Below are positions 4,972-19,721 of a DNA stretch of 64,000 nucleotides, piece by piece. The stretch covers positions 2,270,001 to 2,334,000 of the forward strand of contig NZ_CP017042.1 in assembly GCF_001717585.1 (NCBI RefSeq), in the 5' to 3' direction. Under the pieces are notes generated by a model, which saw nothing but the letters and a program-made list of their open reading frames with translations, made no database searches and was not told the origin of the DNA. Numbering within the stretch: the first letter of the stretch is position 1; each line of letters begins with the position of its first letter. The stretch comes from Selenomonas sp. oral taxon 920. GTDB taxonomy: Bacteria > Bacillota > Negativicutes > Selenomonadales > Selenomonadaceae. The translations under genes and the position numbers were made by a program.

Positions 4972-5000
4972 ATTGTAACAGAGAGAAGGAATGTTGGCAA
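4972..5000 (-). promoter_or_regulatory. nrdD promoter
   Basis: Minus strand TTGCCA (5000..4995), 17 bp, TACAAT (4977..4972); gives a leader of about 50 nt. It is back to back with the trpS promoter. Confidence 0.65.
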
Positions 5001-5015
5001 GATTTTTTTGTGGCT

Positions 5016-5044
5016 TTGCTTATCTTTCTCTCATGGTATATAAT
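5016..5044 (+). promoter_or_regulatory. trpS promoter, probably also serving the phosphonate operon
   Basis: TTGCTT (5016-5021), 17-bp spacer, TATAAT (5039-5044). No terminator is seen between trpS and pntC, so it can feed the downstream operon. Confidence 0.7.
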
Positions 5045-5077
5045 GGAGAAACATTCTACAACAAAGGAAGGAACGTC

Positions 5078-6088
5078 ATGAACGAAAAGGACGCAGTCAC
5101 CTCCCGCCGCAAGATTATCCTGAGCGGCATTCAGCCCACCGGCACATTCACCCTCGGCAACTATCTCGGGGCAGTGAAAAACTGGCGGCACCTGCAGGAG
5201 GAGTATGACTGCTATTATTTTGTCGCCGATCTCCACGCACTGACGGTGTACCACGATCCCGCCGCACGGCGTAAGGCGAGCCGCGCGGCGTTTGCGCTGC
5301 TGCTCGCGTGCGGGCTTGACCCCGAGGAGAGCCTCGTCTTTATCCAGAGCCATGTACCCGCGCACGCGCAGATGGGGTGGATGCTGTCCTGCCTCAGCCC
5401 GTTCGGCGATCTCTCGCGCATGACGCAGTTCAAGGACAAGTCGGCGAAGCACCCCGAGGACATCAACGCGGGGCTCTTTACCTACCCCGCCCTCATGGCG
5501 GGTGACATCCTGCTCTATCAGGCGGACTATGTGCCTGTCGGTGCGGATCAGACGCAGCACCTTGAGTTTACGCGGAACATCGCAGCGCGGTTCAACCACG
5601 TCTACGGCGAGACGTTCCGCCTGCCCGAGGGCTATTTCCCTAAGGCGGGTGCACGCGTCATGAGTCTCGCGGAGCCGACGGCGAAGATGAGCAAGTCGGA
5701 CGAGAATGCAAAGGCGACGATCTACATCCTTGACGACGAGAATACGATCCTGAGAAAATTCAAGTCCGCCGTGACGGACAGCGAGGCGGAGGTTGCATTC
5801 CGCGAAGGAAAAGACGGCATCAACAATCTGATGACGATCTACTCCGCCGTGACAGGCAAATCGCTCGATGAAATTACGGCGGAGTTCGCGGGCAGGGGCT
5901 ACGGCGACTTCAAGACGGCGGTCGGCACGGTGGTCGCGGACGAACTGCGTCCGATCCGCGAGAATTACGCGCGGCTGATGGAGGACAAGGCGTATCTCGA
6001 CGCGGAGGTCGCAAAGGGCGCGGAGCGTGCCGCGCACATCGCGGAGAAGACACTGCGGAAAACCATGCGCAAGATGGGGCTGTGCTGA
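5078..6088 (+). CDS. trpS: Tryptophanyl-tRNA synthetase
   Basis: 336 residues; the ATG at 5078 has AAGGAAGGA at 5063-5071. Class I synthetase charging tRNA-Trp in the cytoplasm. The HIGH-equivalent is TLGNYLG near residue 25 and the KMSKS loop is AKMSKSDENA near residue 203; GDILLYQAD and QTQHLEF are also typical. Length is normal for bacterial TrpRS. Its stop codon overlaps by one base the ATG of the phosphonate cytidylyltransferase gene, so the two are translationally coupled, an unusual partnership of housekeeping and accessory genes. Confidence 0.97.
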   Translation: MNEKDAVTSRRKIILSGIQPTGTFTLGNYLGAVKNWRHLQEEYDCYYFVADLHALTVYHDPAARRKASRAAFALLLACGLDPEESLVFIQSHVPAHAQMGWMLSCLSPFGDLSRMTQFKDKSAKHPEDINAGLFTYPALMAGDILLYQADYVPVGADQTQHLEFTRNIAARFNHVYGETFRLPEGYFPKAGARVMSLAEPTAKMSKSDENAKATIYILDDENTILRKFKSAVTDSEAEVAFREGKDGINNLMTIYSAVTGKSLDEITAEFAGRGYGDFKTAVGTVVADELRPIRENYARLMEDKAYLDAEVAKGAERAAHIAEKTLRKTMRKMGLC

Positions 6089-6807
6089 TGGGTACACACC
6101 GTGTAAGACGCGCCGTCATTCTCGCGGCGGGGCGCGGCTCGCGCCTCGCACCGCTGACGGACCATATGCCGAAACCGCTCGTGCCCGTGAGCGGCACGCC
6201 GATCATTGCGACAATTTTAGATGCGCTTAATGCGGCGGGGATTTCGTCGATTACTATTGTGCGGGGGTATTGCGGCGCGGCATTCGACACGCTCCGCACA
6301 AAGTACCCTCACCTGCAGTTTGTCGACAATCCCGACTGGGAGACGGCGAACAACATCTCGTCCATCGCACTCGCGGGACGTGCGGGGCTGCTCGCAGACA
6401 GCTACGTGATCGAGGGCGATCTCTACGTTGCCAATCCTGCCGTCATTACGCCCACACAGGAGCGTTCGAACTACATCGCATTCCCCGTCGCAGAGGCGGA
6501 CGACTGGTGCTTCGACTCGGACGCGGCGGGCAGGATCACACATATTGACACCGAAAGTGATCACCCCTGCCATCAGATGCTCGGGCTGTCCTACTGGACG
6601 GCGGCGGACGGGGAGCGGCTCGCCGCATGTGCAAATGCGCTCTACGCCGAGGAACAGTATCGTCAGCTCTACTGGGACGAGATCATGCTGAAATATCATC
6701 CGCGCGAATGCGACGTGTATATCAGGGAATGCACGCGCGCGGACGTGTGGGAGATTGACACGGTGGAGGAGCTGCGGGAGCTTGAGGCGCGGATAAAGAG
6801 GGGCTGA
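6088..6807 (+). CDS. pntC: CTP:2-aminoethylphosphonate cytidylyltransferase (PntC/LicC-type)
   Basis: 239 residues starting at the ATG that overlaps the trpS stop (TGATG). NTP-transferase fold with the signature LAAGRGSRLAPLT and MPKPLVPVSGTPI at residues 12-40, an EGDLYV metal-binding segment near residue 112 and WEIDTVEEL near the C-terminus, as in LicC phosphocholine cytidylyltransferases and the AEP-specific PntC. Given PEP mutase, decarboxylase and transaminase genes downstream, CMP-AEP formation is the likely reaction; phosphocholine or phosphoethanolamine activation is the alternative. Family assignment is solid; substrate is inferred from neighbours. Confidence 0.75.
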   Translation: MGTHRVRRAVILAAGRGSRLAPLTDHMPKPLVPVSGTPIIATILDALNAAGISSITIVRGYCGAAFDTLRTKYPHLQFVDNPDWETANNISSIALAGRAGLLADSYVIEGDLYVANPAVITPTQERSNYIAFPVAEADDWCFDSDAAGRITHIDTESDHPCHQMLGLSYWTAADGERLAACANALYAEEQYRQLYWDEIMLKYHPRECDVYIRECTRADVWEIDTVEELRELEARIKRG

Positions 6808-6815
6808 GTGTCCAG

Positions 6816-6850
6816 CTTGGCGGAGTGCCCGATGCGAACGCCTCGCCAAG
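6816..6850 (+). repeat. Intercistronic inverted repeat
   Basis: CTTGGCG (6816-6822) and CGCCAAG (6844-6850) could form a hairpin between pntC and pepM. There is no T run, so it may be an RNA-processing or stability element rather than a terminator. Confidence 0.35.
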
Positions 6851-6905
6851 TCACAGATATACGATCCTCCAGCGCAAAAGATAGAGATAGAGGGAGAAGG
6901 AATCT

Positions 6906-8201
6906 ATGAAACATGTTTACACTTGCTTCTGCACCGACATCATCCACGCGGGACACCGCAACCTCCTGCGTGCGGCGGCAGAGCTGGGCGAGGTCACGGT
7001 CGGCGTGCTCTCCGATCCGGAGATGGTTCGCTACAACCGCTTTCCGACCAAGACGCTCGCCGAGCGCATGGAGATGATCCGCGCACTGCCCGAGGTCACA
7101 CAGGTTATCGTGCAGGAGCACATCATGTACGACGAGGTCATTGATCGCCTGCGCCCCAACTACGTCGTGCACGGGAGCAACTGGGCGCAGGGACCCGAGT
7201 CGTCGATCCGCAAGAACGTGCTCGCCGCACTCGCGCGTTACGGCGGCGAGCTGATCGAGCCGCCCTATACGGAGAATGCCGAGGTGCGCAAGATCGACTG
7301 GCAGATGCGTGAGCAGCTCGCGATGCCTGAGGCACGGCGCGGACGGCTGCGCCGCCTCCTCGAGATCGTCCCCATCGTAAAGACCATCGAGGTGCACAAC
7401 GGACTCACGGGGCTGATTGCCGAAAAGACAGTCGTCGAGAACGACGGCGGGCTTGACCAGTTCGACGCAATGTGGGTCTCAAGCCTCTGTGATTCGACCT
7501 CGCGCGGCAAACCAGACATTGAGCTGGTCGACCTCTCCGACCGCATCCAGACCATCAACGAGGTCATGGAGGTCACAACGAAGCCCATCATCCTCGACAT
7601 GGACACGGGCGGCACGGCGGAGCATTTCGCCTACAACGTCCGCACGCTGGAGCGCATCGGAGTCTCTGCCGTCATCATCGAGGACAAGACGGGCGCAAAG
7701 CGCAACTCCCTCTTCGGTACAGAGGTCGCGCAGACACAGGACACGATCGAGAACTTCTCCGAGAAGATCGCCGCAGGCAAGGCGGCACAGCGCACGGAGG
7801 AGTTCATGATCATCGCACGCATCGAGAGCCTGATCCTCGAAAAGGGGCTGGACGACGCGCTGGAACGCGCGGAGGGATACGTCGCGGCAGGCGCGGACGG
7901 CATCATGATCCACTCGCGCGCGAAGTCTCCCGACGAGGTCATCGCGTTCTGCGACGCATTCCGCGCAAAACATCCGAACGTCCCGATCGTCGCCGTCCCC
8001 TCCTCCTACAACACAATCACGGAAGCGGAGCTCGCGGCACACGGCGTGCGCATCGTCATCTACGCGAACCAACTCACGCGTGCGGCATTCCCCGCCATGG
8101 AGGGCGCGGCACGTTCCATTCTCACGCACCACCGCGCACACGAGATCGACAGTGCGCTGCTGCCGATCAAGGACATCATCCGGCTGATCGAGGTAGTATA
8201 G
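6906..8201 (+). CDS. pepM: Phosphoenolpyruvate mutase with N-terminal cytidylyltransferase-like domain
   Basis: 431 residues; AGGGAGAAGGA precedes the ATG. Two domains: residues 1-130 are a cytidylyltransferase-like fold with the HxGH motif as HAGH (residues 15-18), but the usual C-terminal RTxGISTT signature is replaced by GPESSIRKN; residues about 150-431 are a PEP mutase of the isocitrate-lyase superfamily with the diagnostic EDKTGAKRNS at 259-268. It isomerises PEP to phosphonopyruvate, the entry step of nearly all C-P bond biosynthesis; the unfavourable equilibrium is pulled by the decarboxylase at 18609. The fused N-terminal domain is known in some PepM proteins; its role here is unclear because a dedicated CTP transferase is also present. 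Confidence 0.92.
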   Translation: MKHVYTCFCTDIIHAGHRNLLRAAAELGEVTVGVLSDPEMVRYNRFPTKTLAERMEMIRALPEVTQVIVQEHIMYDEVIDRLRPNYVVHGSNWAQGPESSIRKNVLAALARYGGELIEPPYTENAEVRKIDWQMREQLAMPEARRGRLRRLLEIVPIVKTIEVHNGLTGLIAEKTVVENDGGLDQFDAMWVSSLCDSTSRGKPDIELVDLSDRIQTINEVMEVTTKPIILDMDTGGTAEHFAYNVRTLERIGVSAVIIEDKTGAKRNSLFGTEVAQTQDTIENFSEKIAAGKAAQRTEEFMIIARIESLILEKGLDDALERAEGYVAAGADGIMIHSRAKSPDEVIAFCDAFRAKHPNVPIVAVPSSYNTITEAELAAHGVRIVIYANQLTRAAFPAMEGAARSILTHHRAHEIDSALLPIKDIIRLIEVV

Positions 8202-8908
8202 TGAGCAATGAATGGAAAGCCGTCTGGAACCGGCGGCAGGCGGCAGACGATGCCCTCATGGGCGATTGGCAGGATGTCTTTCTCGAACTGAAGCGCCTCA
8301 ACGGCTTCGATGTCGTGGACGGAGGCATTCCGCTGGACTCGCTTCTGATGCAGGGGCGGCGCATCAAAGAGCTGCTGCATCTCAAAGATGGTATGAGCGT
8401 CTATGATGTCGGCTGCGGCGCTGGGGCCAATCTCTACCTCATGCAGCGCGACGGCATTGCGGTCGGCGGCACGGACTATGCTGCCCCTCTTGTCGAAACA
8501 GCACGTAAAGTGCTCCCCGATGCGCGTGAACTCACCTGCGGTGAGGCAGATGCGTTCGACACGGCGCTCAAATACGATGCGGCTCTCTCGAACAGCGTCT
8601 TTTCCTATTTCCCAAGCGAGGAATTCGCAGAGCGCGTCCTCACTCGTATGCTCGAAAAAACGACCGGTGCCATCGGTCTCATTGACCTGCACGATGCGGA
8701 CAAAGAAGAAGACTTCCTCGCCTATCGCCGTGCGACAATCCCCGACTATGACGAACGCTACAAGGGGCTCAGAAAGTTCTTTTACTGCCGCGCGTTCTTC
8801 GAGGACTTCGCACGCGCGCACGATCTTAACATCAACTTCCCCGCCATCGAGATGGAGGACTACTGGAACACACCGTTTGTATTCAATGTATTTATGTATC
8901 GGAAGTAA
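8201..8908 (+). CDS. SAM-dependent methyltransferase in the phosphonate operon
   Basis: 235 residues starting at the GTG that shares one base with the pepM stop codon. A class I methyltransferase fold: motif I VYDVGCGAGANLYL near residues 67-80, then GGTDYA (acidic ribose-binding position), and a C-terminal half rich in aromatic residues. Because it sits between PEP mutase and AEP transaminase, methylation of AEP, of CMP-AEP or of the final conjugate is the simplest hypothesis; small-molecule N-methyltransferases look like this. No residue visible fixes the substrate. There is no strong ribosome site, so expression probably depends on coupling to pepM. Confidence 0.75.
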   Translation: MSNEWKAVWNRRQAADDALMGDWQDVFLELKRLNGFDVVDGGIPLDSLLMQGRRIKELLHLKDGMSVYDVGCGAGANLYLMQRDGIAVGGTDYAAPLVETARKVLPDARELTCGEADAFDTALKYDAALSNSVFSYFPSEEFAERVLTRMLEKTTGAIGLIDLHDADKEEDFLAYRRATIPDYDERYKGLRKFFYCRAFFEDFARAHDLNINFPAIEMEDYWNTPFVFNVFMYRK

Positions 8909-8911
8909 GCT

Positions 8912-10006
8912 ATGAACATCAAACGCAACATTCTCCTCAACCCCGGTCCCGCGACAACGACCGATACGGTCAAGGCGGCACAGCTCGTCCCCGACATCTG
9001 CCCGCGCGAGCGCGAATTCGGCGAGCTCATGCGGGAGCTTGGCACAGATCTACTAAAGGTCGTCCACGCAAATGAAACGGAGTGGACGACCGTCCTTTTC
9101 TGCGGCTCGGGTACGATCTGCATGGATGCGTGTGTCAGCTCGCTCGTCCCTGCGGAGGGGAAGCTCCTCATCGTCAACAACGGCGCATACTCCGCACGTG
9201 CAGCAGAGATGGCGCGCGCCTACAGCGTGCCGCATATCGACCTGAAGTTTCCGATTGACGGGCAGCCCAATCTCGCCGAGGTCGAGCGCATGCTCATCGA
9301 GCATCCTGACATCACTGCCGTCTACACAACCCATCAGGAGACAGGCACGGGCATTCTAAACCCCGTGCAGGAGATCGGCGCACTCGCCCACGCATACGGG
9401 GCCGTCATGATCGCGGACACAATCTCAACGTATGCCATGATTCCATTCAGCGTTGATGAAATGAACATTGACGTGTGTATGTCCTCGGCACAAAAGGGCA
9501 TTCAGGGCATGACGGGGCTGTCCTTTGTCCTCGCGAAAAAATCCGTGCTCGCGGCAGCAAAGGCGTATCCCGTGCGCTCGTACTACACGAATCTCGTCAT
9601 GCAGTACGAGGGGTTCGAGCAGACGGGCGAGATGCGCTTTACCCCGCCCGTGCAGACGGTCTATGCGGCAAGGCGTGCGCTCACGGAGTACTTTGCCGAG
9701 GGCGAAACGAAAAAATGGGCACGCCATACGCGCACGATCAACGCCATCCACGAGGGACTTGCAGAGCTTGGGCTGAAGGAAGCCATCCCGCGCGCGATCC
9801 AGTCGGGACTCGTGGTCGCCGTGGAATATCCATCGGCAGACTTTGATTTCATGCGCGTACACGACTACTGCTATGAGCGCGGCTACACCATCTACCCCGG
9901 TAAGATGCAAACCTCGGCGACGTTCCGCCTCTGCGCCCTCGGCGCCATTGATGAGGCAGACATCCGAGGCTTTTTCCGCGTATTTAAGGAAGCACTGAGG
10001 GCGTAA
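8912..10006 (+). CDS. phnW: 2-Aminoethylphosphonate aminotransferase (PhnW-type)
   Basis: 364 residues, three bases after the methyltransferase gene; GGAAG precedes the ATG. A PLP-dependent class V aminotransferase: N-terminal LNPGPATTTDTV, pyrophosphate-site GSGT (residue about 66), DTIS with the ring-binding Asp near 171, and the Schiff-base Lys195 in SSAQKGIQG. PhnW interconverts AEP and phosphonoacetaldehyde with alanine/pyruvate; in an operon with PepM and Ppd it should run in the biosynthetic direction. Length matches the family. No phosphonatase (phnX) or C-P lyase gene is nearby, which argues against a catabolic role. Confidence 0.9.
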   Translation: MNIKRNILLNPGPATTTDTVKAAQLVPDICPREREFGELMRELGTDLLKVVHANETEWTTVLFCGSGTICMDACVSSLVPAEGKLLIVNNGAYSARAAEMARAYSVPHIDLKFPIDGQPNLAEVERMLIEHPDITAVYTTHQETGTGILNPVQEIGALAHAYGAVMIADTISTYAMIPFSVDEMNIDVCMSSAQKGIQGMTGLSFVLAKKSVLAAAKAYPVRSYYTNLVMQYEGFEQTGEMRFTPPVQTVYAARRALTEYFAEGETKKWARHTRTINAIHEGLAELGLKEAIPRAIQSGLVVAVEYPSADFDFMRVHDYCYERGYTIYPGKMQTSATFRLCALGAIDEADIRGFFRVFKEALRA

Positions 10007-10031
10007 CTGATTGCAAAGGGGACAGGGAGAA

Positions 10032-12191
10032 ATGCAGGACGATTTCACGGTATTCTGGAAAAACAACGACCGCGCCCGTACTCTCTTTTACGACCTCCTC
10101 GCACGCTCGGAGCGCAGGGCATACGATGATGATTTTCTGGCACAGCTCGCTGCCTATCGGGAGGCTGCACCAGACTCGGAGCGCGCGGACATCTTCGCCG
10201 CGCAGTACCTCCTCCATCACGGCGACGCTGAGAACGCCGCGCTCTGCGGGGAACGCGCCTTTCAAAAGCGGCCCCTGAATCTCGAGGTGTGGCGCGTGCT
10301 CGCCGCCGCCTACAAGCAGCTCGGGCGGGAGCTCGATGCTGTCACGATGCAGGGCTACGCCTACGGGCTCTATCGAGGTGCGGACACGGGGGGAATCGAC
10401 CTCGATCTCAGTCTGACCGAGGAAATTCAAAACGAAGCCTTGGGCCGACTGACGCTCGCCACGGGAAAGAGCCTGAACGCCCCGACCTCAACCAGCCGCG
10501 CCTATCTGATGAACCCGGGGCTCGGGTTCCGCTTTGACGTATTCATCGGTGAGGAGATTCCCATAACGATGCCACAGGGCAGCGCACGCTTTTGGAGTGC
10601 CGCCTATGCAGAGAACACGGGGCTGTCCGATCACAGCTATATGCTCACTGAGGCACGGCATACTGCATGGTTCACACGCTACGGCCACCGCGACTTCTTC
10701 TTTGACCTGCAAAAGGCAAGCGAGGTGCGCGGCACAACCGAGATCGCGCTTCCCGCCGGACGGGAGGCAATTGTCCCCTTGGCGGGCACGGTCCCCGACC
10801 AACGAATCTCTGTCACAACGCCCTCCATGGGGACACGGGATATCTATCTCGGCAAGTGGGCGTTCAGCTTCTTTCGTCTGAACGAGACCACACAGCTGTA
10901 TGCCGATGCACAGGATGCCTATGCCGTCGGCACCCCGATCCTGCTCGAACACAGCCCCGTGCGGCGCAAGCTCGTCCTGAATATTTTCGTCGACGCTCTA
11001 TCCTGGGCGGTCGTTCGTCCCTACGCCGCGACCCATCTGCCAAACATCTCCAAATTCTTCGCACGCGGCACAATCTTCGATCAGCATTTCTCGACCTCAG
11101 AGCACACCCTCTCGGCATTCCCTGCCATTGAGACCGGCTGCTATCCCCATCATACACATATCTTCAACGTAAATGCCGGACGCGAGCTGCCCGCAGAGAT
11201 GACCACCACAGCCGAGCACATGAAGGCACTCGGCTACTACTGTGCCATCCCGATGGGGGCCGATCAGGGGCTCTCTCAAGGCGTTATGCGCGGCTATGAC
11301 CGCGCGGTGCTCTCCACATGGATTCAGAATTCGGTCGATGGCGTGGACCACGTCCTGCGCCAGCTCAAAGCCTTCGACGAGGTCGATCAGTTCCTCTTTC
11401 TTGCGGTCAATGACATACACCCGTATGACGGTCTCGGCTATAAATTCGACACCAACGTTGAGACCCATCTCCCGCTCGCCGACCGCTTCTTTGACCACAC
11501 AGAGCGTACGGCAAGCGTCTTTTTGACCAATATGCGCATCTATCAGGAGCAGTATCTGGAACGCGTGCGTCAGGTGGATCACAACATCGGCATTCTCCTC
11601 ACCTACCTGGAGGAGAACTTTGCCGCCGACGAGTACATTGTCAGCCTCTACTCGGATCACGGTGTTCCCATATTCAACAAGGAAACCTCGGACAAGCTGG
11701 ACATTATCAGCACATACGTCTCAAACGCGACATGGATGATGCGCGGCACGGGCGTGCCCGTGGGTGTGCGTACAAATGAACTGACGAGCATTGTCGATAT
11801 CCAGCGGACGCTCGCCCATCTGTGCGGCTTCTCCGTCGCCGCGTGCAGTGACGGCAATCTCCCCGCCGTATTCGGCGGCAGGGAGCGCGATGTGGTCTGC
11901 TCCACGTCTCAGTTCCCGGGGCAGACATTCAAGCTTGCTGTCCGCACGCGCGATCATGCGCTGCGCCTTGAGACGCAGGAGTTCGTCGACGAGGACGGGC
12001 GTGTGGACCTTGCAGGAGCAACGGTCGGCATCTATCCGCGCGAACACGAGCTTGAGGAAGGCTATCGGCTCGACTCCGAGGAGCTGCGTGCGTTCTTCTA
12101 CCCGCGCGCACGGGACTTCGTGCGCGCGATCGCAAGCAACGGTGAACACTGGCCCGCGATGCGTGCAGCTCGCCCGCAGTGGTTCGGATAA
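10032..12191 (+). CDS. AP-superfamily phosphotransferase/hydrolase-like protein, tandem paralogue 1
   Basis: 719 residues; start set at the ATG aligned with the other three paralogues (MQDDFTVFWKNND), with AAAGGGG ten bases upstream. No signal peptide or membrane segment, so cytoplasmic. Residues 1-110 look like helical TPR-type repeats (ADIFAAQYLLHHGDAENA). The C-terminal two thirds is a sulfatase/phosphatase-superfamily domain: metal Asp in NIFVDALSW, nucleophile position Thr359 in SEHTLSAFPAIETG, NDIHPYD, and the metal pair in LYSDHG. Thr rather than Cys/Ser points to phospho- or phosphono-ester chemistry, not sulfate. Automated annotation would call it sulfatase. Placement between AEP transaminase and phosphonopyruvate decarboxylase suggests it acts on an AEP conjugate; this is inference. 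Confidence 0.75.
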   Translation: MQDDFTVFWKNNDRARTLFYDLLARSERRAYDDDFLAQLAAYREAAPDSERADIFAAQYLLHHGDAENAALCGERAFQKRPLNLEVWRVLAAAYKQLGRELDAVTMQGYAYGLYRGADTGGIDLDLSLTEEIQNEALGRLTLATGKSLNAPTSTSRAYLMNPGLGFRFDVFIGEEIPITMPQGSARFWSAAYAENTGLSDHSYMLTEARHTAWFTRYGHRDFFFDLQKASEVRGTTEIALPAGREAIVPLAGTVPDQRISVTTPSMGTRDIYLGKWAFSFFRLNETTQLYADAQDAYAVGTPILLEHSPVRRKLVLNIFVDALSWAVVRPYAATHLPNISKFFARGTIFDQHFSTSEHTLSAFPAIETGCYPHHTHIFNVNAGRELPAEMTTTAEHMKALGYYCAIPMGADQGLSQGVMRGYDRAVLSTWIQNSVDGVDHVLRQLKAFDEVDQFLFLAVNDIHPYDGLGYKFDTNVETHLPLADRFFDHTERTASVFLTNMRIYQEQYLERVRQVDHNIGILLTYLEENFAADEYIVSLYSDHGVPIFNKETSDKLDIISTYVSNATWMMRGTGVPVGVRTNELTSIVDIQRTLAHLCGFSVAACSDGNLPAVFGGRERDVVCSTSQFPGQTFKLAVRTRDHALRLETQEFVDEDGRVDLAGATVGIYPREHELEEGYRLDSEELRAFFYPRARDFVRAIASNGEHWPAMRAARPQWFG

Positions 12192-12218
12192 CTTTGAACG
12201 AGGGAAAGGGAACGTAAC

Positions 12219-14324
12219 GTGACGGACGATTTCAGCGTATTTTGGCAAAACAACGATACTGCCGCCGCACTCTTTTACGATCTCCTCGCACGCTCGGAAC
12301 GCGGAGCATATGATGATGATTTTCTTGCTGCACTTGCTGCCTATCGGGAGGCAGGAACGAACCCAGCCCATGCAGACATCTTTGCTGCGCAGTACCTCCT
12401 GCATCACGGCGATACCGAGAATGCGCGCCTCTGCGCTGAGCGAGCCTATGCGCTTCGCCCTGTGCACAACGAGACATGGAGGCTGCTTGCTGTCATACAT
12501 TCAGCGCTGGGGGATGCTCTGAATGCTTCGATTTTTAATGCCTATCTCCATCGCTTTAAGCAGACAGCGATACCCTCCACCCTGCCGCATGCGGATGCGG
12601 CGGCACTTGCCCGTCTCACACGTGCAATGATTGGCTGCATTGACGCACCTCTTGCAAAGAGGCGCGCCGTCATCGAAAACGATACGCTGACCTTCCATCC
12701 AGATGTCTTTGTCGGGGAGTACCTTCCCGTCACGGTGCCGGAGGGAAGCGCCCCGTTCTGGGTCGGAACTTATGCCGACGGCGGCTTTCTCTCGGATCGC
12801 GGATATATGATTGCGGATGCCCGTACAAAGGATTGGTTCCAAGACAATATCTGCCGCGATTTCCCCTTTGACCTGCAGAAGGCGCAGGAGGTACGCGGCG
12901 CCGTACAGATCGATGTGCCGGAAGGACGTGAGGCACTCCTCCCTATTGCCGGAACACAGCCCGTGCAGGAACTGATTGTCAGCACGCCGTCGCACGCAGA
13001 TCAGCTTGCCTACCTCGGCAAATGGTCGTACAGCTATATACGGCTCTCCGAACCGACGACGCTGACATGCGAGGAGGATGCGCCATTTGCCGCAGGTACG
13101 CCAATCCTCCTCGGACACGGCACACATCGCCATAAGCTCGTGCTGAATATTCTCGTCGATGCGCTCCCGTGGAATGTTGTACGCGGTCACTTTGCCGAAT
13201 GGATGCCGCATATCGCTCGCTTCTTTGCACGTGGAACAGTTTTTGATGCACATTTCTCCACATCGGAGTACACCTATCCCGCCCTGCCCGCTATCGAGAC
13301 GGGACGCTTCCCGCATCACACGCAGTTCTTTCAAGGTGAGGCAAGTCATGAGCTCTCGCCTGCATTCCTGACGCTTGCCGAGTGCATGAAGGATCTCGGC
13401 TACTACACCTCCGCCCCCATATTAGCGACAGACGGCATCTATAACGGTACGATGCGCGGTTACGATCGGCTGATTTCGACGGTATGGCAACAACCCTCCC
13501 GCCTCGGTGCAGAACGAACAATCCATCACATCGAGGCATTCGGCGAGGCGGATCTCTTCACCTTCCTCCATCTTTCCGATGTGCATCCGTGGGATGCGAT
13601 GGCGTTCAACTTTGCGACCGAGGTGGAGACGCGCCTGCCGCTTGCGCACCGTCTCTTTGCGTGGGAGAAGGAGACGGCGAGTGTACGTCTGCCGGACTTT
13701 GAGATCTACAAGGCGCAGTTCCGCGCAGGTCTCAGAGATGTTGACCGCAATATCGGCATGCTTCTCTCCTATATCGAGAGTCACTATGCGGACGATGAAT
13801 ATATTGTCAGCCTCTACTCCGATCATGGCAGTTCGGTCTTTACTCCGCGCGTGGAGGGCACGGAGCTCGATGTCATCGGAGAGAACTCAACAATGGCTGC
13901 GTGGATGATGCGCGGCGCGGGTGTCCCGGAAGGGGTTGTCACGAATGAACTGACAAGCATCGTGGATCTTTATCCAACGCTGGGTACTCTGTGCGGTTTT
14001 CCCGTCGCTGGGGATATCGACGGGAATCTGCCCGCCATCTTCGGCGGCAGGGAGCGCGATACAGTATGCTCCTACTCTCAATTTCCAGGACAGACATTCA
14101 AGCTCGCCGTGCGCACAGCGACACATGCCCTGCGCCTTGAGACGAAAGGCTTTACGGAAACGGATGGGACCGTGGATTTTGCAGGAGCAGCTGTCGGCAT
14201 TTATCCGCGCGGACATGAGCTCGAGAAAGACCATGCGGCCGACAGCGCAGAGCTGCGCTCATTCTTCTATCCGCGTGCACGGGACCTCGTACGGGAGATT
14301 GCAAACAATGGGGAACGTTTTTAA
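12219..14324 (+). CDS. AP-superfamily phosphotransferase/hydrolase-like protein, tandem paralogue 2
   Basis: 701 residues from a GTG with AGGGAAAGGG eight bases upstream; 27 bp after paralogue 1. Same architecture: an N-terminal helical-repeat region beginning MTDDFSVFWQNND, then the catalytic domain with NILVDALPW, Thr352 in SEYTYPALPAIETG, SDVHPWDA and LYSDHG. All metal-ligand positions seen in paralogue 1 are retained, so it is probably active. It ends at NNGERF and lacks the Trp-containing tail (WPAMRAARPQWFG-like) of paralogues 1 and 4. Cytoplasmic, no signal sequence. Confidence 0.72.
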   Translation: MTDDFSVFWQNNDTAAALFYDLLARSERGAYDDDFLAALAAYREAGTNPAHADIFAAQYLLHHGDTENARLCAERAYALRPVHNETWRLLAVIHSALGDALNASIFNAYLHRFKQTAIPSTLPHADAAALARLTRAMIGCIDAPLAKRRAVIENDTLTFHPDVFVGEYLPVTVPEGSAPFWVGTYADGGFLSDRGYMIADARTKDWFQDNICRDFPFDLQKAQEVRGAVQIDVPEGREALLPIAGTQPVQELIVSTPSHADQLAYLGKWSYSYIRLSEPTTLTCEEDAPFAAGTPILLGHGTHRHKLVLNILVDALPWNVVRGHFAEWMPHIARFFARGTVFDAHFSTSEYTYPALPAIETGRFPHHTQFFQGEASHELSPAFLTLAECMKDLGYYTSAPILATDGIYNGTMRGYDRLISTVWQQPSRLGAERTIHHIEAFGEADLFTFLHLSDVHPWDAMAFNFATEVETRLPLAHRLFAWEKETASVRLPDFEIYKAQFRAGLRDVDRNIGMLLSYIESHYADDEYIVSLYSDHGSSVFTPRVEGTELDVIGENSTMAAWMMRGAGVPEGVVTNELTSIVDLYPTLGTLCGFPVAGDIDGNLPAIFGGRERDTVCSYSQFPGQTFKLAVRTATHALRLETKGFTETDGTVDFAGAAVGIYPRGHELEKDHAADSAELRSFFYPRARDLVREIANNGERF

Positions 14325-14341
14325 TCACGAGGAGGCGTGTC

Positions 14342-16444
14342 ATGAGCAGCAACTTCACCGTATTTCACCAAAACAACAAACACGCCGCTGAGCTCTTTTA
14401 CGATCTTCTTGCACGTGCAGAGGCTGATGCCTACGATGATGATTTCCTCACATTGCTCGCTGCCTATCGGGAGGAAGAGGATAGTGAACGCGCGGATATC
14501 TTTGCTGCAGAATATCTGCTTGCGAACGGTGATGCAGAGAATGCCATCCTTTGCGGCGAGCGCGCCTTTCACCGCCGTCCCGTCGAGCCGCGGATCTGGT
14601 CTGTGCTGTCGCGCGCCTATGCGGCTGCCCGCCGCTATGCGGATGCGCTCGTCATGCAGGGATATCCGCTGAACTTCTTCCATATGCCCATCTCTCTCGA
14701 TGTCCCCTCCTCTGTATTGACGAAGGAAGTCCTCGACCGCCTCTCGCGTGCGACAGGCAAGGCAAACTATGCCCCCTATGCACTCAGCCGTATGCACTTT
14801 TCACCAGAGTCAGGATTGACGGCAGAGTCCACAGTCTTCTTCGAGGAGTTCCTTCCTGTCTCGCATCATATTGCACCACACTACTATGTCGGGGCGTATA
14901 CAGAGCAGGAGATCCATGGCAATAAGCGCTGGCTGATGCATACGATTGCCCACGCGGATGGACTGGCGGGCAATGTCGGCGGGGATTTTACCTTCGACAT
15001 CATGCGCGGTACACGCGCGCCAAAAGAAGCAACCATCTCGATTGAAGCAGGTACCGAGGCGATTGTCCCCATCTTTGGAACTGCAAACGAGCAGGTCCTC
15101 ACTGCAAAAACAGAAGCAGCAGATGACTGCATTTGGCTGAATTCCGCAACGCCAAATTTTTTCCGTCTGAACGAAGATACTCAGTTCTCGTCGGCAGAGG
15201 ACTTTATCGTCGGCACGCCGATCCGTCTCGAACACAGCCCTGCACGAAAGAAACTCGTCGTGAACATCCTCGTGGATGCCCTGCCGTGGCAGGTGCTTCG
15301 CTCGTCATTTGCCAAACATATGCCTGAGACTGCGCGCTTCTTTGCACGCGGTACGATTTTTGACCAGCATTTCTCTGTACTCGAGTACACCTATCCCTCA
15401 CTTCCCACAATCGAAACAGGAATGTACCCCCAACATTCGGGTGTATTCAGTGAGTGGGCAGCGATCGAACTGAACGAGGACTATATCACCATTGCTGAGC
15501 GTGCGCGTGATGCAGGCTACACAACAACGAGCCTTATGGGCGACGGTATCGGCATCTACAACGGAGTGACGCGCGGGTACGACCGTCTCGTTGTTTCGCC
15601 CTACCGCCTCCATGCCTATGAAGGTGTGGAGCGCACGATCCGCTATCTGGATGGATGTCACGAGGCGGATCACTTTATCTTCCTGCACTTCGGCGATGTG
15701 CACCCGTGGGGCGGCGAAATATTCCAAATTTCCTCCTCTGCGCAAATGCAGCTGCCGCTTGCGGGACGTCTCTCCGGCTCAAAGGAGAAGGTTACGAGTC
15801 CATACCTGCGTCCAAGCGCATTTTACCAAACCGCATTCTGGCAGGCGATACACGATACGGATCGTGCGCTCGGTGCACTCTTCGCCTATATTGAGAAGCA
15901 TTATGCTCCTGAGGACTATCTCGTCAGCCTGTACTCGGATCACGGTGTGCCGATCTTCAGCCCGACACATTATATCGTGGACGCTCAATTAACGGGCGCA
16001 GCGTGGATGATGCGCGGCGCAGGGGTGCCGGAGGGCATTGTTGCGGATGAGTTGACGAGTGCCGTGGACATCTATCCGTCACTTGCCCATTTGCTTAGGT
16101 TTCCGGTCGGCGACAATGTGGACGGTGTCCTGCCGCAGCTCTTCGGCGGCACAGGACGCGAGATCGCCTACAGCAATTCCCTCTTCCCGCGCAAGCACTA
16201 TCATCTTGCAGCGCGTGCACAATACTATACATTCTGTCTCGAGACAATGGATGTCGTCTCGCTCAGCGGTACTGCCGATCTTGAACGAACAAAGGCGGGG
16301 ATTTATCCTCGTGCACATGAAGGTATTGCAGGGCATGAGGTGGACAGCCCTGAACTGCGCGCATTTTTCTACCCGCGTGTGCGGGAATTCCTAAAGTGTA
16401 TTGGGAATAACGGGGAAATGTTCCCTCTGCCGGAGGAAATATAA
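14342..16444 (+). CDS. AP-superfamily phosphotransferase/hydrolase-like protein, tandem paralogue 3
   Basis: 700 residues; ATG at 14342 preceded by GAGGAGG-type purines, 17 bp after paralogue 2. The most divergent copy by eye: it starts MSSNFTVFHQNNK and has FSVLEYTYPSLPTIETG (Thr350) where the others have FSTSE. GDVHPWGG and LYSDHG are kept, so the metal site appears intact, but the midregion (residues about 110-290) differs strongly from the other copies, as expected if that region sets acceptor or substrate choice. Its stop overlaps the start of paralogue 4 by one base. Confidence 0.7.
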   Translation: MSSNFTVFHQNNKHAAELFYDLLARAEADAYDDDFLTLLAAYREEEDSERADIFAAEYLLANGDAENAILCGERAFHRRPVEPRIWSVLSRAYAAARRYADALVMQGYPLNFFHMPISLDVPSSVLTKEVLDRLSRATGKANYAPYALSRMHFSPESGLTAESTVFFEEFLPVSHHIAPHYYVGAYTEQEIHGNKRWLMHTIAHADGLAGNVGGDFTFDIMRGTRAPKEATISIEAGTEAIVPIFGTANEQVLTAKTEAADDCIWLNSATPNFFRLNEDTQFSSAEDFIVGTPIRLEHSPARKKLVVNILVDALPWQVLRSSFAKHMPETARFFARGTIFDQHFSVLEYTYPSLPTIETGMYPQHSGVFSEWAAIELNEDYITIAERARDAGYTTTSLMGDGIGIYNGVTRGYDRLVVSPYRLHAYEGVERTIRYLDGCHEADHFIFLHFGDVHPWGGEIFQISSSAQMQLPLAGRLSGSKEKVTSPYLRPSAFYQTAFWQAIHDTDRALGALFAYIEKHYAPEDYLVSLYSDHGVPIFSPTHYIVDAQLTGAAWMMRGAGVPEGIVADELTSAVDIYPSLAHLLRFPVGDNVDGVLPQLFGGTGREIAYSNSLFPRKHYHLAARAQYYTFCLETMDVVSLSGTADLERTKAGIYPRAHEGIAGHEVDSPELRAFFYPRVREFLKCIGNNGEMFPLPEEI

Positions 16445-18612
16445 TGATGCACGACTGCACGGTATTCTGGCAGAGCAATGAACGCGCCTGCCAGCTCTTT
16501 TACGCTCTGCTCGCACGTGCAGAGCGCGGGGAATACGATGATGGTTTTCTTGCTGCTCTCGCCTCCTATCGGAAGGAGTCTCCGGATGCCGAAAATGCGG
16601 ATATCTTCGCCGCGCGCTATCTCCTGCATCATGACGACACTGCGGCAGCTCTTGTCTGTGCAGAGCGAGCCTATCGCCGCCGTCCGGTACACTATGAGAT
16701 ATGGACGCTGCTCGCGGAGATCTACACCTGCCTCGGGCGTACGCTGGATGCCCTCACAATGTATGGCTATGCCTACGGGCTGCATTTTGCCCCCGATATC
16801 CCCATAGAGCTTACCGTCCGCGGCGGAACGGAGGGACTGAATCGGCTCTCCGTCGCGGCGGGGTTCGGGACGGGTGCGCCGATGACACAGAGCCGTGCAG
16901 CGCTCGATGAGGGGGGCGGGCTTCGCTTTGACCTCGATGCCTTTGTCGGCGAACATCTGCCGCTAACGCCTCCTGCGGGAAGTGTACGTCACTGGGTCGG
17001 TACCTATGTCGAGAACGCCTTTCTCTCTGACAAGAGTGCGCTCATCGAGGAGGTGCGCCACACCGGGGTATTCGTCGACAAGATGCAGCGCGACTTCCCC
17101 TTTCAGCTGCAAAAGGCGCAGACGGTATGCGGTGCGGCAACAATCGAAATTCCGCAGGGGACGGAGGTCATCCTCCCCATTGCGGGTACGAAAAACCTAC
17201 AGGAACTCACAGTAAAAACCGAGACCCTTCCCCCCGCAACGGCATATCTCGGAAAATGGGCGTTCAGTCACTTCCGGCTCTCGGAGACGACACATCTCAA
17301 AGCGGCGGACGATTCCCCATATGTTGTTGGCTTGCCAATTCGTCTCGGTCACAGCCCCATGCGGCATAGACTCGTGCTGAACATCCTCGTTGACGGGCTT
17401 TCATGGAATGTGGCACGCGCCCGCTTCCCCGACTGTATGCCGAATATTGCACGCTTCTTTGCGCGCGGCGTGATCTTCGATCAGCATTTCTCCACGTCGG
17501 AGTGCACTTATCCCGCACTCCCCGTCATTGAGACGGGACGCTATCCGCATCACACACAGGTCTTTCACGAACGCGACAGCCACGAGCTCCCACCGGACTT
17601 TATGACGCTCTCGGAGTGTATGTCGGATCTCGGCTACTATGCTGCAGCACCGATGGGCGCAAGCGACAGCGTCTACTGCGGCGCACTGCGCGGCTACGAC
17701 ATGCTGAACGTGAGTGCGTGGAAGCTCCCGTCTGCGGAGATGGTTGATCGCGCGATCATGCAGATCGAGGCGTTTCGCGAGACAGATCAGTTTCTCTATC
17801 TGCATACGACCGACGTACACCCGTGGAATGCAAAAGGCTTCAAGTTCCATCCATCGGTGGAGACACAACTGCCGCTCTCTGATCGTCTCTTTGAACTCGA
17901 CGAGAGCATCGCAAGTGTCCGTCTGCCGAAACTCGCGATCTATCAGGAACAGTTCTGGCGGAGTCTCCGCCATGCAGACCGCAGCATCGGCTGTCTGCTC
18001 TCCTATGTCGAGGAGCATTTCGCGGCAGATGAGTATATCGTGAATCTCTACTCCGATCACGGAAACTCGGTATTTTCTGCACCGACAAACGGTGTGATCG
18101 ATGTTATTGGTGAAAATTCGACGCGTGCCGTCTGGATGATGCGCGGCGCAGGAATTCCTGAGGGGATCGTTACAGATGAGCTGACGAGTATTGCGGACAT
18201 CTATCCGACCTTGGGCCATTTGACAGGATTCCCCGTCGCCGAGGACATCGACGGCAATCTGCCCGCCGTCTTTGGTGGCAGACAACGCGATGCCGCGATC
18301 AGCATGTCTATGTTCCCTGGGCAGACATACAAACTCGCCGTGCGCACGCATACACATACGCTGCGCCTCGAGACAGCAGGCCCACTCAATGAGAATGGAA
18401 CAGCAAACTTCGCCGATGCCAAGGTCGCCATCTATCCGCGCGCCCATGAACTTGAACACGGATACGAACGGGACAGCGAGGAGATGCGCGCCTTCTTCTA
18501 CCCGCGTGCACGTAAAATTGTACAAGTGCTTGCAAACAACGGTGAGATCTGGCCGGAGATGCACGCGGCAAGGCCAGAGTGGTTTGGAAAGGACAAAAAG
18601 GAGCACCTATGA
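16444..18612 (+). CDS. AP-superfamily phosphotransferase/hydrolase-like protein, tandem paralogue 4
   Basis: 722 residues; the ATG at 16444 overlaps the previous stop and GGAGG lies upstream (a second ATG follows at 16447). It starts MMHDCTVFWQSNE. Catalytic features are NILVDGLSW (Gly replaces Ala after the metal Asp), Thr355 in SECTYPALPVIETG, TDVHPWNA and LYSDHG. The C-terminal WPEMHAARPEWFG tail matches paralogue 1, so 1 and 4 are probably closest relatives. The stop overlaps the ATG of the decarboxylase gene by four bases, tying the four paralogues to the AEP pathway. Confidence 0.72.
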   Translation: MMHDCTVFWQSNERACQLFYALLARAERGEYDDGFLAALASYRKESPDAENADIFAARYLLHHDDTAAALVCAERAYRRRPVHYEIWTLLAEIYTCLGRTLDALTMYGYAYGLHFAPDIPIELTVRGGTEGLNRLSVAAGFGTGAPMTQSRAALDEGGGLRFDLDAFVGEHLPLTPPAGSVRHWVGTYVENAFLSDKSALIEEVRHTGVFVDKMQRDFPFQLQKAQTVCGAATIEIPQGTEVILPIAGTKNLQELTVKTETLPPATAYLGKWAFSHFRLSETTHLKAADDSPYVVGLPIRLGHSPMRHRLVLNILVDGLSWNVARARFPDCMPNIARFFARGVIFDQHFSTSECTYPALPVIETGRYPHHTQVFHERDSHELPPDFMTLSECMSDLGYYAAAPMGASDSVYCGALRGYDMLNVSAWKLPSAEMVDRAIMQIEAFRETDQFLYLHTTDVHPWNAKGFKFHPSVETQLPLSDRLFELDESIASVRLPKLAIYQEQFWRSLRHADRSIGCLLSYVEEHFAADEYIVNLYSDHGNSVFSAPTNGVIDVIGENSTRAVWMMRGAGIPEGIVTDELTSIADIYPTLGHLTGFPVAEDIDGNLPAVFGGRQRDAAISMSMFPGQTYKLAVRTHTHTLRLETAGPLNENGTANFADAKVAIYPRAHELEHGYERDSEEMRAFFYPRARKIVQVLANNGEIWPEMHAARPEWFGKDKKEHL

Positions 18613-19721
18613 ACGTAAGCGAACTCATCTCTGCGCTTGGCGCGGAGTTCTTTGCGGGCGTGCCGGACTCGAAGCTGCGCCCGCTCGTGGACTATCTGAT
18701 GGACACGTACGGGGCGAACAGCCCCGCGCATATGATTGCGGCAAACGAGGGCAGTGCGGCAGCGCTTGCGGCAGGTTATCACCTTGCGACGGGAAAGACG
18801 CCGCTCGTCTATCTCCAAAACAGCGGGCTCGGCAACATTGTCAACCCTCTGCTCTCCCTGCTGCACGAGGAGGTCTACGGAATTCCCTGCATCTTTGTCA
18901 TCGGCTGGCGCGGCGAGCCCGATCTGCATGACGAGCCGCAGCATCTCGTGCAGGGGCGGCTGAGTCTGCCGCTGCTGGAAACGATGGGCGTGCATACGAT
19001 CGTGCTCACGCGCGACACGACACCCGCCAAGATTGCGGCATGGATGGAACAGCAGACCTCACACCGTGAGCGCGGCGGACAGTGCGCGCTCCTCGTGCGG
19101 GACGGTGCACTCTCGTATCCAAAGCGCACGTATGCAAACAACTATGCCCTGCGCCGCGAGGAGGCAATCGCACGCATTCTGGATACAGCAGGGGATGCCG
19201 TCATTGTTGCAACCACAGGCAAGACGGGGCGCGAGCTCTTCGAGCTGCGCGCGACGCGCGGCGAGGATCACGCACATGACTTTCTCACGGTCGGCTCGAT
19301 GGGGCATGCCTCCGCGCTCGCGCTCGGCATCGCCATCCACCGCCCGAATCGCCGCGTTATCGCGCTCGACGGCGACGGTGCGGCGCTCATGCACATGGGC
19401 GCCATGGCGACCATCGGCGCAGCTGCCCCGCCCAACCTCATGCACATCCTCCTCAACAACGAGGCACACGAGAGCGTCGGCGGCGCACCGACGGCGGCGA
19501 GCAGCATCAGTTTCCCCGCCATCGCCGAAAATCTCGGCTATCATGTGCTGCCGACGGCACAGACGGCGGATGAACTCACGCATGCCCTCCTGCAGCTGCA
19601 CGATGCGCGCGCCCTCACCTTTCTCGAGGTGCGCACCGCCGTCGGCTCCCGCGCGGACTTGGGACGTCCGACAACGACGCCGCACGAGAATAAAGAAGCA
19701 CTGATGGAAACGCTGCGGTAA
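18609..19721 (+). CDS. ppd: Phosphonopyruvate decarboxylase
   Basis: 370 residues; ATG inside the stop of the preceding gene, with AAAAAGGAG upstream. Thiamine-diphosphate enzyme that converts phosphonopyruvate to phosphonoacetaldehyde and CO2, making the PEP mutase step irreversible. The N-terminal pyrimidine-binding half carries the conserved glutamate in AANEGSAAAL (residue about 48); the C-terminal pyrophosphate half has GDGAALMHMG at 255-264 with the downstream NN pair (LLNNEAHES). Length fits Ppd rather than the larger acetolactate synthases. Last gene of the operon, followed by a strong terminator. Confidence 0.93.
   Translation: MNVSELISALGAEFFAGVPDSKLRPLVDYLMDTYGANSPAHMIAANEGSAAALAAGYHLATGKTPLVYLQNSGLGNIVNPLLSLLHEEVYGIPCIFVIGWRGEPDLHDEPQHLVQGRLSLPLLETMGVHTIVLTRDTTPAKIAAWMEQQTSHRERGGQCALLVRDGALSYPKRTYANNYALRREEAIARILDTAGDAVIVATTGKTGRELFELRATRGEDHAHDFLTVGSMGHASALALGIAIHRPNRRVIALDGDGAALMHMGAMATIGAAAPPNLMHILLNNEAHESVGGAPTAASSISFPAIAENLGYHVLPTAQTADELTHALLQLHDARALTFLEVRTAVGSRADLGRPTTTPHENKEALMETLR

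Follow-up and report, generated by a model that had tools for sequence, protein, structure and literature searches.

The Pnt pathway, as outlined by Rice et al. (2019, PMC6697681), comprises PepM, Ppd, a 2-aminoethylphosphonate (AEP) transaminase and a LicC-like cytidylyltransferase with Glu at the Tde-PntC Glu104 position. The passages on its gene neighbourhoods mention LicD-like phosphotransferases, tailoring after C-P bond formation is called enigmatic, and the main text contains no occurrence of 'sulfatase', 'alkaline phosphatase' or 'Selenomonas' (PMC6697681). The Lic-1 phosphocholine pathway consists of LicA, LicB, LicC and LicD. For the type A pathway of C. difficile (CD0240-CD0244), it was proposed that a CDP-activated phospho group goes onto the flagellin sugar, and the proposed transferase, CD0244, is TagF-like (excerpts of PMC4441256 and PMC10714395). 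AEP was also seen on the GlcNAc of C. difficile flagellin, with a reported mass shift of +107.013 Da, its origin being left open in the excerpt concerned (PMC8861647).

The alkaline phosphatase (AP) fold also occurs in head-group transferases, such as EptA/MCR and LtaS. EptA/MCR and LtaS have a membrane anchor and an extracytoplasmic catalytic domain and draw on phospholipid donors; EptA and LtaS use a Thr nucleophile that forms a phospho-enzyme. PptA is of the same kind, and its donor is given as open in the excerpt of PMC10434233. Among the matches listed from open-licence PMC papers, the excerpts described no AP-fold CMP-phosphonate transferase.

In the present study, we analysed a phosphonate operon of Selenomonas sp. 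oral taxon 920 in a window, meaning the whole stretch of 64,000 nucleotides. The operon shares all of the above components with the Pnt pathway; in place of LicD-like phosphotransferases it carries four AP-superfamily proteins (AP1-AP4). Relatives of this locus share with Lic-1 a choline kinase, a LicC-like enzyme and an EamA protein (called LicB-like here), but AP sits at the place expected for LicD. The C. difficile type A pathway differs, since the operon has no CD0241-0243-like set and CD0244 is unlike the AP fold. One relative's locus (L065), in which AP adjoins SerB-like, cytidylyltransferase-like (NTP transferase) and methyltransferase genes, resembles CD0241-0243 by family only. Unlike the EptA/LtaS type, the window's AP proteins have no membrane segment, contain TPRs and are coupled to CMP donors.

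The phosphonate operon and its four AP proteins

The operon lies directly downstream of trpS, and all of its genes were found by profile searches and in ORF translations. The ORF caller was home-made, and genes may be missed or shifted. The features, in window positions, are as follows.

4991-6088, plus strand: TrpS, upstream neighbour outside the operon function (TIGR00233, 335 bits)
6082-6807, plus strand: LicC/PntC-type cytidylyltransferase, predicted to convert AEP to CMP-AEP (NTP_transf_3 PF12804, E 7.9e-12)
6906-8201, plus strand: PEP mutase PepM with an N-terminal CTP_transf_like domain PF01467 (TIGR02320, 396 bits; cut-off 320)
8201-8908, plus strand: SAM-dependent methyltransferase (PF08241/PF13649)
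8912-10006, plus strand: AEP transaminase PhnW/AepZ (TIGR03301, 432 bits; cut-off 361)
10011-12191, plus strand: AP1, with TPR, beta-rich middle domain and alkaline-phosphatase-fold domain; predicted head-group transferase (PF00884/PF01663)
12219-14324, plus strand: AP2, architecture as AP1 (Sulfatase/Phosphodiest folds)
14342-16444, plus strand: AP3, architecture as AP1 (Sulfatase/Phosphodiest folds)
16444-18612, plus strand: AP4, architecture as AP1 (Sulfatase/Phosphodiest folds; AF2 model)
18609-19721, plus strand: phosphonopyruvate decarboxylase Ppd (TIGR03297, 434 bits; cut-off 312.5)

In the window's genus, trpS is a marker of the conserved operon site. An earlier note on this DNA had started the operon at 6088, given its overlaps as 1-4 bp and named no methyltransferase. 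These points had to be corrected: the first gene begins at 6082, inside trpS, the junctions vary between an overlap of 7 bp and a gap of 98 bp, and a methyltransferase gene is present. Ppd probably starts at ATG 18609, with a 4-bp ATGA overlap with AP4, and its longest frame runs from GTG 18579. Scans for promoters (7 found, 6.2 expected, sd 2.3) and terminators (17 found, 11.5 expected, sd 3.9) were near background, which left the operon ends undecided.

The earlier claim that AEP can be made from PEP held, as PepM, Ppd and PhnW all exceeded curated cut-offs; the PepM translation contains EDKTGAKRNS, matching the EDKX5NS motif. Judged from these sequence families, which support the AEP pathway, the gene set is one that makes AEP. 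It probably also makes CMP-AEP, in line with the same note: the best solved relatives of the cytidylyltransferase were LicC (1jyk, E 2e-30) and the PntC entry 6pd1 (E 3e-13), and the enzyme has Glu at the Tde-PntC Glu104 position. LicC is the nearer of the two relatives, on the other hand, and the enzyme shares with it an Asp at the second amine-contact position. The methyltransferase, a homologue of which adjoins AP in two other loci (L044 and L045), possibly N-methylates AEP or CMP-AEP. The noted absence of PhnX and C-P lyase was confirmed across the whole genome, where PhnJ was not found and PhnX had nothing over the cut-off (best 45 bits against 220); phosphonate catabolism was therefore unsupported.

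No recognised transferase was found in the operon, and the own genome had no match to LicD (PF04991), PF04464 or choline kinase, in agreement with the missing CMP-AEP transferase of the earlier note. The AP array, between PhnW and Ppd, occupies the transferase position, as had been described, and comparison points to AP as the missing head-group transferase. AP2-AP4 are 44-56% identical to AP1, AP3 being the most divergent (44%). The four proteins match PF00884 and PF01663, one also matches PF09295 below the cut-off, and none matches PF04991. The reported TPR-like N-termini were seen both by profile search (residues 62-120) and in the AF2 model (helices 13-139). A hydropathy scan, which is not a signal-peptide predictor, likewise gave no export signal in the four proteins (maximum 0.43 over 19 residues within the first 60), and no membrane segment was detected (maximum 19-residue KD 1.31 overall).

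The AF2 model of AP4 (pLDDT 92.5, pTM 0.92) and the sequence families support an alkaline phosphatase fold in which Asp and His are the metal ligands and the nucleophile opens a helix. T355 is the first residue of helix 355-364 in the model, and D317, E353, T355, H459, D538 and H539 were invariant in all 85 aligned AP proteins. Of 820 pairs, 808 showed lower conservation in the middle domain (model pLDDT 89.5) than in the AP domain. Foldseek gave no confident match for the middle domain; the best was a cupin-like StrC (E 1.2e-3), and carbohydrate-binding modules were near 1e-2. The suggested role of this domain as an acceptor reader is thus drawn from its divergence.

Donor pathways around the AP family

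In genome searches, with at most six AP candidates scored per genome, the AP family was confined to the window's bacterial family (43 of 189 genomes). AP and PepM were no more than 15 kb apart on the same contig in 26 of the 30 genomes with both, including 13/13 in the window's genus. The earlier idea of a phosphonate-decoration system was supported by this proximity, but the family is not bound to phosphonates: PepM over the cut-off was absent from 13 of the 43 AP genomes. The note had asked whether AP is always linked to phosphonate genes, and it is not, as choline kinase, CobD-like fusion and SerB-like neighbours occur in relatives. AP homologues found mainly away from phosphonate genes, which would have spoken against the idea, were not seen, AP being next to PepM in 26 of 43 genomes.

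The other neighbours point to several donors. Choline kinase (PF01633) matched in 12 of 30 genomes tested (11 over the cut-off; G182 below), and in nine of those 12 the match lay within 2.3 kb of AP. In five genomes without PepM over the cut-off (G014, G015, G144, G149 and G182), a choline kinase match adjoins AP. In two others (G165 and G169), AP adjoins a cytidylyltransferase-CobD-like fusion, which was present in loci L044 and L045. In G173, with PepM on another contig, the neighbours are SerB-like, NTP-transferase and methyltransferase genes; elsewhere, PepM and Fe-ADH adjoin AP. Cytidylyltransferase and ChoK are fused in L040, L049 and L054 and separate in L041-L043, the domains having been scanned in L040, L054 and L041 and assigned by cluster in the remaining loci. 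These other pathways and the 13 genomes without PepM over the cut-off ruled out an exclusively phosphonate role for AP.

At first labelling, 19 of 86 AP proteins had no donor label; two of them were relabelled via a neighbouring cytidylyltransferase and one (L065) via its gene set. Several AP loci, including the second own-genome locus (L034), have no recognised donor gene. The 'AEP' label means PepM nearby without Fe-ADH, PhnW being out of view in some such loci, and L090 was changed from AEP to HEP because its cytidylyltransferase has His. On the AP tree, at least 12 changes of donor label are needed among 69 labelled proteins of the 85 aligned ('none' labels dropped, a partial and a GT41-fused protein excluded and one partial sequence added). 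The minimum in 2000 label shuffles was 15, against the 12 observed; with L090 labelled AEP and L065 left out, 10 changes were counted. The AP proteins of L062 and L090 are 84% identical, and their predicted donors differ.

The donor-contacting residue of the cytidylyltransferase varied with gene context, in contrast to the AP catalytic set. At the Tde-PntC Glu104 position, we found E in 18/18 rows with PepM and PhnW (16 different genes), H in 6/6 with PepM and Fe-ADH, and S or D in 8/8 with ChoK (7 different genes), the rows including duplicates of one gene from overlapping loci (L084=L063, L085=L064, L093=L041, L086=L061, L091=L047, L056=L012 and L082_15390=L060). The remaining rows had PepM alone (n=6; E 4, H 2), no clear context (n=7; H 4, S 2, E 1) or SerB/MT (n=1; D). 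Collectively, comparative genomics supports the coupling of the AP family to several CMP-donor pathways.

Predicted head-group transfer and its acceptor

We consider it reasonably probable that the four AP proteins are cytosolic CMP-(phospho/phosphono) head-group transferases, within a scheme that includes flagellin O-glycans as the likely acceptor. In this scheme, PepM, Ppd and PhnW would make AEP, which the methyltransferase may N-methylate, and the LicC/PntC-type enzyme would convert it to CMP-AEP. The AP proteins would use CMP-AEP in the cytosol: the invariant Thr nucleophile at the metal site would take the phosphonyl head group with release of CMP, and the group would then go to a hydroxyl on a protein-linked glycan, which the TPR domain and the variable middle domain would bind. 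With an unrelated fold, AP would thereby fill the role of LicD, or that of CD0244 in the type A pathway of C. difficile. Each of the four paralogues would have acceptor positions of its own, most likely on a flagellin O-glycan, and in relatives the family would serve several CMP-activated head groups. Transfer rather than hydrolysis, the covalent Thr intermediate, N-methylation, the four-way division of labour and the acceptor in this organism are inferred parts of this scheme.

The acceptor was considered in the light of gene neighbourhoods. Comparative genomics supports a link of AP to flagellin islands in some relatives: the AP genes of L058, L059/L083, L061/L086 and L041 belong to flagellin glycosylation islands, and the order flagellin-GT2-GT41-TPR-AP-PepM occurs in L058 and L059/L083. 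Cluster names such as GT2, GT41 and TPR rest on one scanned member each, and in L034 and L083 names like FliD, CsrA, FliW and ValS were assigned by eye. L061 encodes a 1205-aa protein in which GT41 is fused to the AP domain. At least 13 of the 39 AP loci from other genera lay within 25 kb of a PF00669 match, against at most 5.05 expected, with full match lists for 19 genomes, only the listed matches for nine others, G178 (one weak AP match) excluded and the 25-kb limit picked after an initial view of the distances. In the three single-contig genomes, 5/5 AP loci were near a PF00669 match; PF00669 also matches short, possibly hook-associated proteins, and two of these five were nearest a protein of 285-290 aa.

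The same transferases might instead decorate LPS, capsule or another surface glycan, which we regard as rather unlikely. Such an acceptor would fit the own genome, where about 200 kb separate the operon from the flagellin island, as well as the up to 26 of 39 AP loci from other genera that are more than 25 kb from a PF00669 match, though many contigs are short; phosphonate tailoring elsewhere is tied to cell-wall glycans in the account of PMC6697681. It accords less well with the AP genes that are surrounded by GT41, TPR proteins and flagellin, with the GT41-AP fusion and with the single-contig genomes. The own genome, too, has a GT41/TPR flagellin island, with no AP or PepM gene among its labelled genes.

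Transfer, hydrolysis and other roles

The nearest solved relatives of AP, by sequence and by fold, are hydrolases, namely choline sulfatase, other sulfatases and phosphonate monoester hydrolase (PMH). By sequence, the AP domain was closest to choline sulfatase 7pth (E 7e-12) and PMH 4upk (E 1.5e-11); by fold, to choline sulfatase 6fny (Z 31.4) and PMH 4uph (Z 30.8), and model residues 306-715 gave Z of about 29-33 against sulfatases and PMH. The alignment covers the AP domain, the TPR and middle domains lying outside it. In the profile alignment, T355 falls on the Cys of CAPAR in 6fny and on that of CGPSR in 4upk, which we take to be the formylglycine Cys. The formylglycine motif has Cys or Ser as nucleophile, but the AP proteins have Thr in 85/85; formylglycine sulfatases were therefore ruled out.

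These relatives would also fit AP proteins acting as hydrolases or editors, which strip AEP (or choline-P) head groups off glycans or destroy surplus CMP-donor, and in a published seawater scheme AP-family enzymes release phosphonates from glycans (excerpt of PMC8931226). We judged this reading improbable: it would leave the own genome without LicD or PF04464 for the transfer, four hydrolase copies would be odd in a biosynthetic operon, and Thr stands where the hydrolases have Cys. Thr is the nucleophile type of the EptA/LtaS transferases, but of some phosphodiesterases too.

Least likely, and quite improbable, is that AP acts on another step of glycan assembly while AEP is transferred by LicD, in genomes that have it, or by an unrecognised enzyme: LicD adjoins AP in several loci (L042, L044, L050, L054 and L058), and AP therefore need not be the transferase there, and some AP genes adjoin nucleotide-sugar type genes or no donor gene (L036, L048 and L034), but AP repeatedly adjoins differing CMP-head-group pathways, its catalytic set is fully conserved, and LicD, with a match somewhere in 12 of the 30 genomes with PepM and AP and in 8 of the 13 with AP only, is lacking in 18/30, including 12 of 13 PepM+AP genomes of the window's genus.

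Under the preferred reading of cytosolic head-group transfer, a donor-swapping family with a constant catalytic core would be a candidate for the transfer step, and the alkaline phosphatase fold would appear in a new setting, with a CMP donor and in the cytosol. More tentatively, and as a possibility short of probable, the AP proteins may represent a hitherto undescribed class of soluble cytosolic AP-superfamily transferases with TPR and acceptor-reading domains, which would move CMP-activated AEP, hydroxyethylphosphonate, choline, ethanolamine-type or phospho-amino acid groups to flagellin O-glycans, with array paralogues writing a site-specific phosphonate pattern on the filament. The scheme makes a specific prediction: which head group the glycan carries should follow from the type of residue in the adjacent cytidylyltransferase. 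If true, oral bacteria and their relatives would carry a zwitterionic, C-P-bonded decoration on surface glycans, perhaps on flagella, and a new kind of enzyme would account for the poorly understood step of phosphonate attachment.

The phosphonate operon and its linkage to the AP family

The gene run of the window comprises the following features.

4991-6088, + strand: trpS, first of the run
6082-6807, + strand: LicC/PntC-type cytidylyltransferase
6906-8201, + strand: PEP mutase (PepM) with an N-terminal CTP_transf_like domain; curated NCBIfam cut-off passed
8201-8908, + strand: SAM methyltransferase
8912-10006, + strand: PhnW/AepZ; curated NCBIfam cut-off passed
10011-18612, + strand: four AP-superfamily genes
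18609-19721, + strand: Ppd; curated NCBIfam cut-off passed

The earlier note had described this inventory correctly overall, with the SAM methyltransferase missed and minor junction details off. The window PepM carries the EDKX5NS motif, which Rice et al. (PMC6697681) take as the criterion for true Ppm enzymes. In three relatives (L004, L007, and L009), the methyltransferase is present as two consecutive copies, and in G036 the AP copy at the array end is broken across two frames (G036:C1:555957-556974) and is probably a decayed gene.

Among 189 genomes of the family, AP was present in 43 and PepM above the cut-off in 42; 30 had both, 13 AP only, and 12 PepM only (Fisher P 2e-15, genome relatedness ignored). 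In 26 of the 30 genomes with both, AP and PepM lay on one contig within 15 kb of each other, including 13/13 in the genus and 13/17 outside it (apart in G123, G150, G173, and G183). The earlier note had proposed that AP homologues lying mainly away from phosphonate genes would speak against its reading; these counts therefore indicated the opposite. A class-wide search (E<=1e-20) matched 42 of 380 genomes, every one in the same family. The named collection yielded 12 loci, of which 11 belonged to Selenomonas, Centipeda, or a Veillonellaceae MAG (the nearest, Selenomonas infelix ATCC 43532, was 96% identical over the best segment); the twelfth, from a Planctomycetota MAG, matched only residues 338-545 at 25%. 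Phosphonates alone do not explain the AP family. At L035 of G031 (9651-13060), AP is present as a single gene at the same trpS site, and PepM, PhnW, and Ppd are all missing; apparently these phosphonate genes were lost or never gained while AP was retained.

Flagellin islands and the putative acceptor

The flagellin glycosylation islands of some relatives include AP and PepM genes. The gene order flagellin-GT2-GT41-TPR-AP-PepM was observed in G007 (L058) and G156 (L059/L083), the latter island adjoining genes assigned by eye as FliD-, CsrA-, and FliW-like, and the order flagellin-AP-choline kinase-LicC in G015 (L041). In a G177 island, a GT41 (OGT-type) domain and an AP domain are joined in one 1205-aa frame (L061, 15136-18753). 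Outside the genus, 13 of 39 AP loci lay within 25 kb of a PF00669 match, a distance picked after a first look at the data; the expectation was no more than 5.05 (simulated P 0.0008). In three single-contig genomes, all five AP loci were this close, and for two of them the nearest PF00669 protein was a short one. AEP is known to occur on flagellin glycans: PMC8861647 reports it on the GlcNAc of FliC of C. difficile, a species reported without pepM. PMC8931226 interprets protein-fraction phosphonate of Prochlorococcus as O-glycan decoration.

For the window's organism, we infer the acceptor, because its own flagellin-GT2-GT41-TPR island (about G000:C1:2049500-2067400) lies roughly 200 kb from the operon and no AP gene was labelled there; an acceptor other than a flagellin glycan is the alternative at this point. 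One flagellin gene of this genome adjoins a 3817-aa open frame (L077, 7309-18762, G000:C1), apparently a large surface protein. At L036 (G031) and L048 (G030), AP lies beside nucleotide-sugar type genes in a seemingly flagellar region, and a GT2 protein of the window's genome (L081, 15770-18076) is near related sugar genes.

Architecture and proposed reaction of the AP proteins

The operon paralogues were 44-56% identical to the first of the four. The AF2 model of AP4 (pLDDT 92.5, pTM 0.92) begins with TPR-like helices (13-139) at the N-terminus; a middle domain rich in beta structure (about 147-296) comes next, followed by the AP domain (306-715). Among the 50 matches listed, the AP domain resembled sulfatases, choline sulfatase, and phosphonate monoester hydrolases (PMH) with Z of about 29-33, and sequence profiles matched choline sulfatase (E 7e-12) and PMH (E 1.5e-11). 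Asp317, Glu353, Thr355, His459, Asp538, and His539 were invariant in 85/85 family members. The formylglycine Cys of choline sulfatase (6fny) and PMH (4upk) aligned exactly with Thr355, so the AP proteins are not formylglycine enzymes. The pathway genes, fold, and invariant catalytic set were established at the sequence level. No membrane segment was seen in the AP proteins, and CMP-AEP, the donor, would be expected in the cytosol. In 808 of 820 pairs (41 sequences), conservation was lower in the middle domain than in the AP domain, which would fit a middle domain that recognises different acceptors; no confident match to its fold was found.

In the proposed reaction, CMP-AEP would bind at the AP site, Thr would attack the phosphorus with release of CMP, and a glycan hydroxyl would attack the phosphonyl-enzyme. 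That the reaction is transfer rather than hydrolysis, that it has a Thr intermediate, and that the operon methyltransferase N-methylates AEP are what we infer, as is the reason for four AP copies. The principle of moving a CMP-activated head group to a glycan has precedents in the Lic, Pnt, and type A systems; a cytosolic transferase with an AP fold and TPRs was undescribed in the open-licence PMC literature searched. One rival reading, AP proteins as hydrolases, agrees with the scheme in PMC8931226, where AP-family enzymes remove phosphonates from glycans; the donor genes described below are better explained by transfer.

The search for other transferases covered LicD (PF04991) and PF04464. 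Neither matched in the window's genome, and LicD was missing from 12 of the 13 PepM+AP genomes of the genus. Where PepM is apart from AP at G150:C30 and G183:C71, LicD adjoins PepM instead. Two results count against the argument from a missing transferase: some LicD match occurred in 12/30 PepM+AP, 8/13 AP-only, and 7/12 PepM-only genomes, and LicD adjoins AP at several loci.

Donor genes beside AP

Where PepM is absent or elsewhere, AP often has neighbours that serve other CMP-activated head groups. These are cytidylyltransferase fused to choline kinase (L040, L049, L054), the same two functions as separate genes (L041, L042, L043), or a cytidylyltransferase-CobD-like PLP fusion accompanied by a methyltransferase (L044, L045). 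At L065 of G173 (8945-13067), AP is followed by a SerB-like HAD phosphatase, an NTP transferase, and a SAM methyltransferase, a set alike by family to C. difficile type A CD0241-CD0243 (PMC4441256, PMC10714395), with AP where the type A system would have its TagF-like enzyme. Choline kinase matched in 12 of 30 genomes tested (11 above cut-off) and lay within 2.3 kb of AP in nine of the 12 (exceptions G001, G172, and G176). In G177, AP with choline kinase/LicC/EamA and AP with PepM share one flagellin island. In several genomes, Fe-ADH replaces PhnW as the partner of PepM, which suggests hydroxyethylphosphonate.

The cytidylyltransferase residue equivalent to Glu104, the amine contact of Treponema PntC, varied with gene context. 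It was Glu in 18/18 PepM+PhnW rows (16 different genes) and 2/2 CobD-like fusions, His in 6/6 PepM+Fe-ADH rows, and Ser or Asp in 8/8 choline-kinase rows (7 different genes); among the six rows with PepM alone, four had Glu and two had His, and His, Ser, or Glu occurred in the seven rows whose context was not clear. Six loci (L058, L073, L088, L089, L094, L095) carry a PepM-cytidylyltransferase fusion with Fe-ADH as partner, and their His at the amine contact predicts CMP-hydroxyethylphosphonate as the product.

The second AP locus of the window's genome (L034, G000:C1:1974000-1993000) encodes three AP proteins of about 800 aa (8066-15299), adjoins a ValS-like gene (named by eye), and has no donor gene nearby; near-identical C-terminal ends despite diverged middles suggest gene conversion.

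Several AP loci had no donor gene in view, as would fit AP proteins without a part in head-group chemistry, a reading disfavoured by the coupling of AP to CMP-donor pathways that the comparison showed. The comparison also showed a coupling to flagellin islands in some relatives. On the AP tree of 69 labelled proteins, the donor label (the head-group pathway predicted from nearby genes) changed at least 12 times, below the minimum of 15 in 2000 shuffles; the label is thus both inherited and often swapped. This pattern is best explained by AP as an enzyme that transfers whichever head group the adjacent genes activate.
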